A stretch of DNA of 64,000 nt, from contig DATMML010000083.1 of the NCBI GenBank assembly GCA_035570235.1, forward strand, positions 1 through 64,000, read 5' to 3'. Shown piece by piece: positions 28,084 to 36,374 of the stretch. The translations under genes were made by a program, and so were the position numbers. Position 1 is the first letter of the stretch, and each line of letters starts with the position of its first letter. The DNA is from Vicinamibacteria bacterium (GTDB lineage Bacteria; Acidobacteriota; Vicinamibacteria; Fen-336). Below the pieces are notes generated by a model. It was not told the DNA's origin. It saw nothing but the letters and a program-made list of their open reading frames with translations, and ran no database searches.

Positions 28084-29238
28084 ATGGTCCTCATCGACCG
28101 GCGGGCCCAGGAGAATCGGGAGGAGGAGCAGCTCGCGCCTTACGGGATGCGGAGCGCGCGCAGCCGCGGGCGCCGATATCCCGAGGAGGAGCACCCCCTG
28201 CGCACCTGCTTCCAGCGCGACCGTGACCGGGTGATCCACAGCTCGTCTTTCCGTCGCCTGGAGTACAAGACCCAGGTCTTCGTCAACCACGAGGGGGACA
28301 ACTACCGGACTCGGTTGACCCACAGCCTGGAAGGGGCCCAGATCGGCCGCACGGTGGCCCGGGCCCTGGCCCTGAACGAGGAACTGACAGAGTGCCTGGT
28401 TCTGGGGCATGACCTCGGCCACACGCCCTTCGGCCACTCGGGCGAGCGGGTGATGGACGAGCTGATGAAGGACCACGGCGGCTTTGAGCACAACCGGCAG
28501 ACCCTGCGCATCTTGGAGGTGCTGGAGCAACGCGACCCGCGCTTCCCGGGTCTCAACCTGACGTGGGAGGTGCGGGAGGGGATCATCAAGCACCAGCCGG
28601 AGAGCGACGCCAGCGCGCCCGCGGAGTACGCGCCCGGGGAAGCTCCCACCCTGGAGGCCCAGCTCGTGGATTTCGTGGATGAGATCGCCTACAACAATCA
28701 CGACGTCGACGACGGCCTGAGCTCCGGCATGTTCACACTGGACCAGATCCGCTGCGTGGACCTTTTTCGGGAGGCCCACGACGCAGCCCTGACCCAGGGG
28801 ATCGAGGACGAGCGCATCCTCCGCCATCAGGTGGTGCGCCGGATCATCAACCGCTGTACGGAAGAGCTTCTATCCGCCTCCTTGCGTAACCTGGAGGAGG
28901 CGCAGATCCAGTCGCTCGACGACGTGAGGCATGTCGGGCGGCGGTTGATTTCATACTCGGCGGCAATGGCGGCCCGAGTGCGGGAGCTGAAGGATTTCCT
29001 GCTCAAGAACATGTACCGCCACTACCGCGTGGTTCGAATGGGGGACAAAGCGGGGCGGATCCTGCGCGCCCTCTTCCAGTCCTTCGTGAGCGAACCGCGG
29101 CAGCTGCCCCCGCGCTACCACGAACAGATCGAGCGAGAGGGCGCTCACCGGGTGGTCTGCGACTACATCGCGGGCATGACCGACCGCTTCGCGGTCGACG
29201 AGCATCAGAAGCTGTTCGATCCTCTGGTCCGGGTCTGA
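28084..29238 (+). CDS. dgt: dGTP triphosphohydrolase (HD superfamily)
   Basis: A 384-residue dNTP triphosphohydrolase, splitting dGTP (or other dNTPs) to the nucleoside and triphosphate. The HD metal-binding motif is CLVLGHDLGHTPFGHSGERV; upstream conserved residues include HSSSFRRLEYKTQVF and NYRTRLTHSLE, with VDEIAYNNHDVDDG later, all canonical for Dgt. A GGGAGGTAGGGGG stretch before the ATG at 28084 gives a ribosome site. It runs divergently from asd and converges on panC. Length is that of the non-enterobacterial subclass (~380). Confidence 0.94.
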   Translation: MVLIDRRAQENREEEQLAPYGMRSARSRGRRYPEEEHPLRTCFQRDRDRVIHSSSFRRLEYKTQVFVNHEGDNYRTRLTHSLEGAQIGRTVARALALNEELTECLVLGHDLGHTPFGHSGERVMDELMKDHGGFEHNRQTLRILEVLEQRDPRFPGLNLTWEVREGIIKHQPESDASAPAEYAPGEAPTLEAQLVDFVDEIAYNNHDVDDGLSSGMFTLDQIRCVDLFREAHDAALTQGIEDERILRHQVVRRIINRCTEELLSASLRNLEEAQIQSLDDVRHVGRRLISYSAAMAARVRELKDFLLKNMYRHYRVVRMGDKAGRILRALFQSFVSEPRQLPPRYHEQIEREGAHRVVCDYIAGMTDRFAVDEHQKLFDPLVRV

Positions 29239-32401: not shown

Positions 32402-33490
32402 ATGGGGCAGATGGATCGGAGGGATTTCGGTCGGGTACTCGCTGCGGGTGTGGCCGGCGCTCTCGCTGCGCCCTCTGCGGAGGCGGTGGCACCTGTCGGG
32501 CCGGGGGGCGGGCTGACGGAGGTGGCGGGCATCAAGGTGGGCCACTTCACAGACAGCCGTCGGCCCACCGGGTGCACGGTAGTCCTGACGGAGGAGGGAG
32601 CGGTCTGCGGCGTGGACGTCCGAGGGGGGGCGCCGGGCACCCGCGAGACGGACCTTTTGGCTCCCGTGAGCATGGTGCCCACGGTCCATGCCCTCGTGCT
32701 CTCCGGAGGGAGCGCCTTCGGGCTCGATAGCGCCACCGGGGTCATGCGCTATCTCGAGGAACGGCGAATTGGGTTTGAGGTGGGAGTGGGGCGAGTGCCG
32801 ATCGTGCCCGCCGCGATCCTGTTCGACCTCGGACTCGGTGACTGGACGGTGCGGCCGGACGCGGCCGCGGGCCAAGCCGCAGCGCGAGCGGCGAGCGCGG
32901 GTCCAGTGGCGGAGGGGAACGTGGGGGCGGGGGCGGGGGCCACGGTGGGAAAGTTGTTCGGGCCCGAGCGGGCCATGAAGAGCGGCCTTGGAACCGCCGC
33001 GGTCAAGCTTCCGGGGGGAGTCGTGGTGGCCGCGTTGGTGGCGGTGAACGCCTGGGGCGACGTGAGCGATCCCTGGACTGGAGCGCTGGTGGCGGGGGCA
33101 CGTGACGCCGACGGCCGGCGCTTGCACGGCACCATCCGGGCGCTGCTCGAAGGTTACGGACCGGGCCGGGGCGCGACGGAAGGCCAAAACACGACGATCG
33201 GTGTCGTGGCGACCAACGTCTCCTTGACGAAAGCGCAGGCCACAAAAGTCGCGCAGATGGCCCACGACGGCCTGGCTCGCACCGTGCAGCCTGCGCACAC
33301 GCCCTGGGACGGGGACACCCTCTTCGCAGTCTCGACGGGGGCGATCCGCATGGCGACGCCGGACCTGGTGGTGGGCATCGTCGCGGCCGAGGCCGTCGCC
33401 CGCGCGGTTCTGCGCGCGGTCCAACTGGCCAAGGGACTCCCCGGCCTGCCCGCGGCCGCCGATCTCGCTCCCTCGCGAGGGTCGGGATAG
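32402..33490 (+). CDS. P1/DmpA-type Ntn-hydrolase, NylC-like, Tat-type signal
   Basis: A 362-residue member of the DmpA/NylC peptidase S58 family, whose precursors cut themselves into two chains to expose an N-terminal nucleophile. The predicted cut is N263-T264 in EGQNTTIGVVATNVSL, which would give Thr264 as nucleophile as in NylC, the nylon-oligomer endo-amidase, rather than Ser as in DmpA aminopeptidase. The start MGQMDRRDFGRVLAAGVAGA looks like a Tat signal (RRDFGR). Natural substrates are probably amide-linked oligomers or peptides; nylon oligomer activity should not be assumed. Next to it on the right begins the 11-bp repeat array. Confidence 0.9.
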   Translation: MGQMDRRDFGRVLAAGVAGALAAPSAEAVAPVGPGGGLTEVAGIKVGHFTDSRRPTGCTVVLTEEGAVCGVDVRGGAPGTRETDLLAPVSMVPTVHALVLSGGSAFGLDSATGVMRYLEERRIGFEVGVGRVPIVPAAILFDLGLGDWTVRPDAAAGQAAARAASAGPVAEGNVGAGAGATVGKLFGPERAMKSGLGTAAVKLPGGVVVAALVAVNAWGDVSDPWTGALVAGARDADGRRLHGTIRALLEGYGPGRGATEGQNTTIGVVATNVSLTKAQATKVAQMAHDGLARTVQPAHTPWDGDTLFAVSTGAIRMATPDLVVGIVAAEAVARAVLRAVQLAKGLPGLPAAADLAPSRGSG

Positions 33491-33494
33491 GAGC

Positions 33495-33694
33495 GGTGGA
33501 AAAGCTGTTGAGGGTCTGTGAACGCCCTGTGGGTCTTCTGGTCAAGCCTGCGGAAAACGCGTGGATATCTCGGAAAAGGACGGGCGCGCGAGGGCTGACC
33601 CTTGAAGGCATCGGGACCCGGGGGGGGCGGTGCAAATGCTGTGGAAGGCCTGTGCGTTCTTTGTGGGAGGGTTGTGCAAGAACTGTGGAGAATG
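33495..33694 (+). repeat. 11-bp-phased TGTG array, DnaA-box-like
   Basis: Fourteen units fill the gap between two genes. Cluster 1 begins at 33495, 33506, 33517, 33528, 33539, 33549, 33560 and 33571; cluster 2 begins at 33629, 33640, 33651, 33662, 33673 and 33684. All steps are 11 bp except one of 10. Typical units are GGTGGAAAAGC, TGTGGGTCTTC, CGTGGATATCT, TGTGGAAGGCC, TGTGCAAGAAC and TGTGGAGAATG. The first nine bases approach TGTGGATAA, the DnaA box read on this strand (33684 matches 8 of 9). The 11-bp period is not a multiple of three, so this is not a protein repeat. Role is inferred: a DnaA-binding site (origin or titration locus) or another phased protein array. Confidence 0.75.
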
Positions 33695-33714
33695 GGTAGG
33701 GGGAAGGCACCCTC

Positions 33715-35388
33715 GTGAGGGTCACGGCCGCGATCCTGCTCCTCGTGGCCAGCGCCACCTTGACCGCGGCCCTGGGCGCGCTCTTGGTGGGCTCGCTGAC
33801 GGTGGGGGTCTCTTGCTTGAGCTTGGGCCTCGGCCTGCTCGCCCTGACCGCGGCCTACCGGGCGTGCGGATCCACGCTGAGCCGGACGCCGCTTCGGCCC
33901 TTCGACTACTTGGCCGGCGTCCTATTCCTCGTCGCCGCCCTGCGGCAGTTCGGCTGGATCTGCTTCCGGCGGGGCGACACAGCCTACACACTGCTTCCAT
34001 TCAACTACGGTGACCTGCCGCTCCACTGGACCTACATCGAGTACTTCGCGAACGGGGCGCCCTTCTGGCCGGAGAACCCGATCTTCACGGGGCAGAGGCT
34101 CCGTTATCCCTTTGGCGTGGATCTCTTCACCGCCCTCTTCGTCACTCTCCGGGTCTCCTTGCCTGGTCTCCTCGAGGTCATGGGCCTCGTCGCGTCCGTG
34201 CTGGCGCTCGTCGCCCTTCTTCGCTGGGGGCGGGGCTTCGCGGTGGGGGCCTTCCTCTTCTCAGGCGGTCTGGCCGCCCTCGGTGCGGGGCCCGGCCCCG
34301 AAGCGGGCGGCCCCGCCGAGCTGGCCTGGAAGAACCTGTTCCTGGCCCTTTTCGTCCCCCAGCGCGGGTTCCTCTTCGCGCTCCCGGCGGGCCTGATCCT
34401 TCTCTGGAGCTGGCGCGAGCGCCTTCTTCGGGGCAGCCGCGGGCTGCCCGCCTGGGTAGAGGGGGCGGTCTGGGGCGCGCTGCCGCTCTTCCACCTCCAC
34501 ACCTTCATCTTCATTTCCGTGATTTTCGGCCTCTGGAGCCTGGGGGGCGGGAGGGGCCAGCCGTGGCGGGGGCCATTGCTCTGGGCACTCGTCCCCGCGA
34601 GCTGGAGCGTTTGGGAGGTGACGGATCACTTTGCCGCCGCGTCCCTGGTGGGCTGGACGCCGGGCTGGATGATGGGGGCCCAGAACCCGCTCGTCTTCCT
34701 GGCCGTGAACTTCGTCTTCTTTCTGCCCCTCGTCCTCTGGGCGGCGGCGCGGGCGATTCGGCGCGGAGACCGCGGCCATCTCCTGCTGCTGGGGCCGGGC
34801 CTTTTGCTCTTCGCGGCTCTGTTCTTCGTGAGGGTCGCCCCCTGGGCGTGGGACAACACCAAGATGATGGTGTGGTGTTATCTGCTCGTGCTTCCCGCGG
34901 TGGGGGAGTTGGTGATCGACGCCCTGGCGCCTGGGCCGCGGAGCCTGATGCTCCTCGCCGTGTTCCTGCCCGGCATCGCTTCCGTGGTCGAGGCGTCGGT
35001 CGGCTCGGGGCCGCCCCTCGAAATCTTCAGGGTGAGCGAGCGGGAGGCGGTCTGCTCCGCCCTCTCGCCGCTCCCCATCCGGGACCGGGTCGCCACCGCC
35101 CCGACCTTCAATCATCCCGTGGCCCTCTGCGGCCATCCCTTGGTGGCCGGCTACGCCGGTCACCTCTGGAGCCACGGGATCGCCGCCGAGCCTGTGACCG
35201 CTCGCCTCGGAGACCTGATGATGGGGAGGCCGGGCTGGGAGGAGGCGGCGCGGGCGGTGGGCGCCCGCTACCTGTTCTGGGGCGCACGAGAGGAGAGGGA
35301 GTTCCCGACGAGCGACCGGCCGTGGGAGACCGCCCGCCGCCCTCTCGCCCGGGGCTCGTGGGGGATGCTCTACGATCTAGGGGAGTAG
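33715..35388 (+). CDS. large polytopic membrane protein, GT-C-like, function unknown
   Basis: A 557-residue integral membrane protein with about twelve hydrophobic segments, starting at a GTG 21 bp after the end of the TGTG array. The first loop contains an acidic pattern (GWICFRRGDTAYTLLPFNYG) and aromatic residues in the style of GT-C glycosyltransferases, but I cannot recognise a defined family. The C-terminal ~130 residues are soluble, with VAGYAGHLWSHG and GARYLFWGAREEREFPTS, as in uncharacterised membrane proteins that act on surface sugars. It overlaps the convergent asparaginase gene by 19 nt at the 3' end. Confidence 0.6.
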   Translation: MRVTAAILLLVASATLTAALGALLVGSLTVGVSCLSLGLGLLALTAAYRACGSTLSRTPLRPFDYLAGVLFLVAALRQFGWICFRRGDTAYTLLPFNYGDLPLHWTYIEYFANGAPFWPENPIFTGQRLRYPFGVDLFTALFVTLRVSLPGLLEVMGLVASVLALVALLRWGRGFAVGAFLFSGGLAALGAGPGPEAGGPAELAWKNLFLALFVPQRGFLFALPAGLILLWSWRERLLRGSRGLPAWVEGAVWGALPLFHLHTFIFISVIFGLWSLGGGRGQPWRGPLLWALVPASWSVWEVTDHFAAASLVGWTPGWMMGAQNPLVFLAVNFVFFLPLVLWAAARAIRRGDRGHLLLLGPGLLLFAALFFVRVAPWAWDNTKMMVWCYLLVLPAVGELVIDALAPGPRSLMLLAVFLPGIASVVEASVGSGPPLEIFRVSEREAVCSALSPLPIRDRVATAPTFNHPVALCGHPLVAGYAGHLWSHGIAAEPVTARLGDLMMGRPGWEEAARAVGARYLFWGAREEREFPTSDRPWETARRPLARGSWGMLYDLGE

Positions 35389-36374
35389 GTGCCGTCGCCC
35401 TCGAAGATCCGCCGGATCTCGAGCGGATCCGGCGTGAGGCCGAGGGCGACCATGAGCTTGATGCGGGCCTTGGGCCCGGGGAGATCCCCGCCCAGGATGA
35501 CCCCCATCTCCCGGAGCATCCGCCCACCCCCCTCGTAACCGTAGGCGGGGGAAACCCGGCCCTCCGCGCAGCGGGAGGCCAAGATGATGGGCAGGCGGGA
35601 GGCCAGGGCAGAGCGCAGGCCGGGCAGCGCGGAGGGGGGGACGTTGCCGCAGCCGGTGGCTTCCACGACCAGGCCTCTCGCTCCCCGCGCCACCGAGGCC
35701 CGGATCAGGGCGTCGTCAACGCCGGTGGCCATGATGTGCAGATCGACTTCCGCGACCAGACGCTTGGCCCTCAGGCAGGGAGGGTGAAAGGGAGGCCGCC
35801 GATAAACGATCTGCCCGCGATCCAGGACCGCGAGCGGGCCAAGGGGGCTGCGAAAGGCGGCCAGGCTCTGGGTGTGCCACTTGTAGGCCTCGGCCGCGGC
35901 GAGCACCTCCTCGCCCACCGCCACCAGAACCCCCCGGTCCCGCGACGCAGGGTGGACGGCGGTCCGCACCGCGGTCATGAGGTTGGCGGGGCCGTCCCAG
36001 CTCGGCTCGGAGAGGGTGCGCATCGCGCCGCAGAAGACGACGGGCTTGGGGCTGTCGAGGGTGAGGTCCAGGAGGAAGGCGGTCTCCTCGAGGGTGTCGG
36101 TCCCGTGGGTGACCACGAGCCCATCCACGCTCGGATCTTCCAGCACCGAGGCCACCCGTGCCTTGAGCCGCCACATCCAGTGCGGCGTCACGTGGGGGCC
36201 GGGAAGACGGGCGTAGTCCTCCAATACGAGTCGGGCCTCGCGGCGGAGGCCGTGCACGCGGGAGACGATCTCCTCCCCGGAGAGGGAGGGCACCGCCGCT
36301 CCCGTGCCGGGGTCCACACGCATGGAAATCGTCCCCCCCGTGAAGATCACGTGCACCGTGCGTCGTGCGCTCAC
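35370..36374 (-). CDS. ansA: L-asparaginase, bacterial type I-like
   Basis: A 334-residue amidohydrolase hydrolysing asparagine to aspartate and ammonia. The GTG start (36374) overlaps the DMT-transporter stop by 4 nt. The first conserved Thr motif is VIFTGGTISM (T12, T15) and the second is VVTHGTDTLEETAFLL (the TD pair). A conserved lysine is expected in the middle region. No signal peptide is visible, so the enzyme is cytoplasmic. Last gene of the coupled thrC-alaX-DMT-ansA run. Substrate could include related amides. Overlaps a convergent gene's tail by 19 nt. Confidence 0.9.
   Translation of the reverse strand: MSARRTVHVIFTGGTISMRVDPGTGAAVPSLSGEEIVSRVHGLRREARLVLEDYARLPGPHVTPHWMWRLKARVASVLEDPSVDGLVVTHGTDTLEETAFLLDLTLDSPKPVVFCGAMRTLSEPSWDGPANLMTAVRTAVHPASRDRGVLVAVGEEVLAAAEAYKWHTQSLAAFRSPLGPLAVLDRGQIVYRRPPFHPPCLRAKRLVAEVDLHIMATGVDDALIRASVARGARGLVVEATGCGNVPPSALPGLRSALASRLPIILASRCAEGRVSPAYGYEGGGRMLREMGVILGGDLPGPKARIKLMVALGLTPDPLEIRRIFEGDGTYSPRS

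Follow-up and report, generated by a model that had tools for sequence, protein, structure and literature searches.

The array and its flanking genes

The locus lies in a stretch of 64,000 nucleotides from a Vicinamibacteria bacterium (the window, by which we mean the whole stretch of DNA analysed). There, two blocks of degenerate TGTGGAAAA-like units, all on the + strand, occupy a 224-bp gap (33491-33714) between a peptidase gene and a membrane-protein gene.

28084..29238, + strand: dgt, HD-domain dNTP triphosphohydrolase (Pfam HD and HD_assoc; synteny)
32402..33490, + strand: NylC-like peptidase S58 gene, left flank (Pfam PF03576)
33495, 33506, 33517, 33528, 33549, 33560, 33629, 33640, 33662, 33673, 33684, + strand: starts of the supported units (relatives-only matrix)
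33495..33570, + strand: first block, with supported units 33495, 33506, 33517, 33528, 33549 and 33560
33582..33628, no strand: G+C-rich spacer of 47 bp without units (sequence and relatives-based matrix)
33629..33694, + strand: second block, with 33629, 33640, 33651 (weak), 33662, 33673 and 33684 in consecutive 11-bp steps
33715..35388, + strand: multi-pass membrane protein, right flank (no Pfam match)
35370..36374, - strand: asparaginase-type gene (tblastn, 72-78% identity in the family)

The downstream side of dgt is the position where the array is conserved across the order, and in many relatives the asparaginase-type gene borders the array on the right, with its 3' end towards it. The membrane-protein gene (33715-35388) is patchily distributed within the family, and at its 3' end it shares 19 bp with the convergent asparaginase gene.

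A preliminary description of the window had claimed 14 units in one orientation, every step but one being 11 bp, in the gap between the S58/NylC-like and membrane-protein ORFs. The units do fill that gap, where the blocks as first described span 33495-33581 and 33629-33694. Using a matrix made from relatives, with the window genome left out, 11 of the 14 units were supported, all on one strand (their positions were derived from the spacings in the leave-one-out unit table). The candidate at 33651 is weak (2.4 bits), yet in phase, and those at 33539 (-5.6 bits) and 33571 (-12 bits) are not units. The steps in the gap are indeed 11 bp apart from one of 10, to which a 58-bp break between the blocks has to be added. 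The single orientation stands, as no unit was detected on the opposite strand of the gap with the relatives-based matrix. The unit sequences in the first block are GGTGGAAAA at 33495, TGTTGAGGG at 33506 (weak), TGCGGAAAA at 33549 and CGTGGATAT at 33560. The last of these matches the DnaA box at 7/9 positions and TGTGGAGAA at 33684 at 8/9, both as originally quoted. Single units are degenerate, and in the window array only those at 33495, 33549, 33640 and 33684 exceed 11 bits.

The phased-chain score of the second block was 40.6 bits, compared with 7.3 +/- 3.0 in dinucleotide shuffles of the gap (maximum 23.2), and 0/1000 shuffles attained it. The window array had the highest such score in the 323 kb scanned of its genome, most of which was covered by pattern search alone, and it is one of the weaker arrays when compared with relatives. 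Together with the control patterns given below, the shuffles and the genome scan rule out chance or base composition as the source of the array. A scan for the single 9-mer TGTGGAWAA with 1 mismatch gave 8 matches in 64 kb against 5.0 expected; the significance of the array lies in its phasing, single orientation and conservation, not in single 9-mer matches. Tandem Repeats Finder and a general repeat search reported nothing at the array, which such tools miss because its units are degenerate. An RNA element was ruled out, since no Rfam family exceeded the threshold in the gap (one chance miRNA match, E 0.69) and the gap folded no better than shuffled sequence (z +0.61). A protein repeat was excluded from the start, correctly, because an 11-bp step passes through all three frames, and a coding gap was rejected because the gap is non-coding in relatives whose flanking genes converge.

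Unit, phase and position in relatives

The consensus of 179 orthologous units is CTGTGGAAAAG, which on the other strand is the DnaA box TTTTCCACA; the extended unit consensus is C-TGTGGAAAA-G. The consensus fits the DnaA-box pattern TTWTNCACA (TGTGNAWAA on the other strand), single units being degenerate, and the original description of the units as degenerate DnaA boxes agrees with this. Leave-one-out matrices applied to 16 gaps (4416 bp) found the array strand to carry 173 units and the opposite strand 15, a bias to be read with the caveat that the array strand is G-rich and that a matrix read backwards also favours it (64 vs 18 sites). Over 200 steps in the 16 gaps the mean step was 11.000 bp, in line with the helical phasing first suggested, and 144/148 spacings of up to 35 bp fell within 1 bp of a multiple of 11, in a set where several gaps were located via the 11-bp pattern and the unit caller omits spacings below 8. 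Eight of the gaps (G003, G005, G009, G010, G011, G013, G014 and G015) were also reached independently via dgt. Relaxed B-DNA has a pitch of 10.5 bp; a pitch of 11.0, not 10.5, would suit protein-protein contact on 9-bp boxes with 2-bp linkers.

A three-unit pattern with 11-bp steps matched 15/21 genomes at up to 2 mismatches, with 0 matches for the same pattern read backwards. At 3 mismatches it reached further family members, and the control gave single matches in three class-level genomes. Both families examined in the order (f1 and f2) carry the orthologous array beyond dgt, with 4 to 19 detected units in each gap. The gap of G012, between the same two genes as in the window, has 19 in one direction, mostly 21-22 bp apart, a spacing that is dominant there and also common in G006; 17 units were detected in G006 and 18 in G008. 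The preliminary description had made its DnaA reading depend on the 11-bp spacing being kept in relatives, and it is kept. The gap DNA had no BLAST-level match in 60 relatives, so only the units and their phase are conserved.

Homology mapping showed the array at a constant place, with dgt on one side and the asparaginase-type gene on the other, while the adjoining genes vary.

NylC, array, membrane protein: G000 (window genome), G006, G012
panB, array, membrane protein: G008
NylC, array, asparaginase: G002, G005, G011, G013
dgt, array, asparaginase: G003, G009, G010
NylC, array, membrane protein, array, asparaginase: G007 (the membrane-protein gene flanked by arrays)

The NylC-like gene is thus not beside the array in G003, G009 and G010, nor is the membrane-protein gene in G002, G003, G005, G009, G010, G011 and G013. 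These same seven genomes and G001 have the array where two genes converge, between their 3' ends. In G001 it adjoins frr at the end of the same gene block, where an ORF and frr converge and leave no promoter side. Wherever dgt was mapped next to the array, the two had the same relative orientation. The other family of the order has the array beyond dgt too, in G014 (weak) and G015. G004 is the only family member without an array at dgt, and it has a three-unit array elsewhere. Box clusters beyond dgt in class-mate family f3 proved to be apparent only, with almost no true cores on inspection.

The array unit at dnaA

The absence of a nearby dnaA had been remarked on at the outset; none lies in the window, and the dnaA of the window genome is on another contig (C103:133747-135036), encoding a DnaA with N-terminal, AAA+ and HTH domains (Pfam). 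We take the ORFs beside it to be rnpA/rpmH. When the 323 kb were ranked by the array matrix, trained without the window genome, the dnaA-promoter boxes came directly after two arrays.

C103:135188 and 135211, upstream of dnaA: dnaA-promoter boxes (array matrix)

The block conserved in the family upstream of dnaA reads TTTTCCACAnnTGTTGAAATCTCTGTGYAAAA and is followed in most members by an A+T-rich tract. Its boxes include TGTTGA and TGTGCA variants, both of which are also found as array units. Here the family probably has its origin or the region of dnaA autoregulation. We regard the array, its phasing, its single orientation, its positional conservation and the consensus that it shares with the dnaA-promoter boxes of its genome as established.

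Class-mate family f3 (L163, L164) has a 10-11-bp-phased array of 5 units (45-49 bits) between dnaA and dnaN, where many origins lie. It resembles the window array in unit and phasing, whereas the window array lies away from dnaA.

Alternative readings and the candidate role

The preliminary description had also considered that the array might be the chromosomal origin, which in this order would be uncoupled from dnaA. Some origins are unlinked to dnaA, the boxes, densely packed in phase and in one direction, look like the half of oriC on which DnaA oligomerises, the f3 array of the same type sits between dnaA and dnaN, and the position is kept across the order. However, the gene-corrected GC3 skew of the + strand stays positive across the array on its 139-kb contig (+0.077 on the left; +0.041, +0.042 and +0.036 on the right), and the binned GC skew on this contig (C83) shows one distant bin near zero and no switch at the array. 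In G013, about 170 kb on one side of the array mostly match in skew sign, with only 19 kb on the other side. These skew values are to be read against a class in which GC skew is weak, too weak in the sampled complete class-mate genome G035 to place its origin, shows no clear pattern near the f5 and f7 arrays and does not switch at dnaA either. An A+T-rich stretch is also lacking: the maximum A+T content over 40 bp is 0.42-0.57 near the arrays and 0.57-0.80 upstream of dnaA, and the value at the array of the window genome (0.50) equals the median of its 800-bp windows. The dnaA region has both conserved boxes and the A+T-rich tract, and the array is not linked to dnaA, dnaN or other origin genes. 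As it has neither an A+T-rich stretch nor a GC-skew switch, the array is probably not oriC, and we consider the origin reading quite unlikely. The array probably lies away from the origin, a placement based on skew, base composition and the dnaA region in a genome of 138 contigs.

It was further proposed that the array controls the next gene, as an operator through which DnaA or another protein would regulate transcription. DnaA also acts as a transcription factor, and the array is directly upstream of the membrane-protein gene in G000, G006, G012 and G008. However, the 3' ends that converge on it are those of dgt (G003, G009, G010) or NylC (G002, G005, G011, G013) with asparaginase opposite and the membrane-protein gene absent; G001 has no promoter side, and G007 carries the array on both sides of the membrane-protein gene. 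Convergent flanks argue against a promoter-operator role in those relatives and make such a role very unlikely in general. The units might instead bind a different filament-forming or nucleoid protein whose site resembles the DnaA box by chance. Each unit is degenerate over half its length, the C before it carries as much information as some positions of the box, and the sequence alone gives no specificity. Against this, the units have the DnaA box as their consensus, their matrix also recovers the dnaA-promoter boxes, and class-mates show this architecture at dnaA-dnaN, so that we rate another protein as unlikely. Remnant iterons of an integrated plasmid-type replicon, with direct repeats of 21-22 bp, would account for the spacing in G012 and G006, and iteron arrays are one-directional. 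Yet no replication-initiator gene was seen beside the array, its position is conserved across two families, and only 9-10 bp of each step are conserved, with the DnaA box as the unit, which makes iterons hardly credible.

The explanation that we favour, and judge reasonably probable, is that the array is a conserved DnaA-box cluster outside the origin, to which DnaA would bind in a cooperative manner, for titration or in the way of datA. An array of boxes that probably lies away from the origin and keeps its position in relatives, as expected of such a cluster, was found in both f1 and f2. Among the roles first suggested, that of a DnaA titration or regulatory locus is supported. From the sequences compared, we infer that DnaA may bind, oligomerise and tune initiation at the array. 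Weak DnaA boxes (TTTTCCACA-like; TGTGGAAAA on the + strand) would be placed head to tail in 11-bp steps, each made of a 9-bp box and a 2-bp linker, and this spacing would let DnaA protomers bind cooperatively and touch each other as a filament. The array would most likely act on the pool of free DnaA by lowering or converting it. It could titrate DnaA or keep it in reserve, being replicated once per cycle, as with the DnaA-box clusters of B. subtilis, or it could promote DnaA-ATP turnover, like E. coli datA. More tentatively, and with less than even confidence, we suggest that this Acidobacteriota order has a locus dedicated to DnaA control. It would be a long track for a DnaA filament, running in one direction with a pitch of 11 bp and kept beyond dgt whatever the surrounding genes, and it would switch or sequester DnaA through an architecture for which neither E. 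coli nor B. subtilis has a described counterpart.

Control of replication initiation is known mainly from these two species. In B. subtilis, deletion of six DnaA-box clusters outside oriC caused early initiation (PMC13220808). Like the array, these clusters hold several boxes away from the origin and are thought to lower free DnaA, but the array differs in its strict 11-bp phasing, its one orientation, its up to 19 detected units and its one syntenic place in two families, often between convergent genes. The E. coli locus datA both titrates DnaA and stimulates the hydrolysis of its ATP (PMC5835720). It is likewise a non-coding DnaA-binding locus away from oriC (binding at the array being predicted), but it needs two separated boxes, a neighbour and an IHF site between, whereas the array is long and uniform. 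Titration by the E. coli chromosome, with an excess of boxes near the origin, has also been described (PMC12371093). Low-affinity sites 2 bp apart in E. coli oriC bind DnaA cooperatively (PMC6727663), and Thermotoga maritima DnaA pairs best on same-facing boxes with a 2-bp gap (PMC10316083). The array shares one orientation and 2-bp linkers suited to cooperative binding with the oriC sites of both species; however, those sites are part of an origin that has an unwinding element, whereas the array has no A+T-rich stretch or skew switch and in relatives is much longer than either oriC box set.

DnaA-box clusters outside the origin are already known as a kind. As far as the literature search shows, none has been described with this strict 11-bp one-directional layout, with this length or synteny, or from this phylum; among the titles and abstracts of open-access literature on Acidobacteria, oriC and the DnaA box, no study of origins or DnaA sites in the phylum was found. 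If the favoured reading is true, a syntenic and regular DnaA array outside the origin would offer a natural system in which to test the titration model and the geometry of DnaA filaments on weak boxes spaced by 2 bp, and the 4 to 19 units detected at the same place among relatives would form a ready-made dose series.

Phased arrays also occur at other places. A second one in the window genome (G000:C49:2115-2157; L104, L111) has 4 units and 34.8 bits, and its flanks are presumably a mechanosensitive-channel-like ORF and a zinc-ribbon ORF. Two congeneric relatives carry seven-unit arrays of 47-49 bits, near 5637 in L159 (G006:C30) and at about 5350-5430 in L160 (G012:C126), beside a gene that we take to encode 2-oxoglutarate dehydrogenase E1. 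In families f5, f7 and f11 (L190-L194, near 1500), phased arrays of 4-5 units lie upstream of a different asparaginase gene, 33-37% identical to that of the window, and not beyond its end as in the order of the window. The recurrence of an asparaginase neighbour may be a coincidence.
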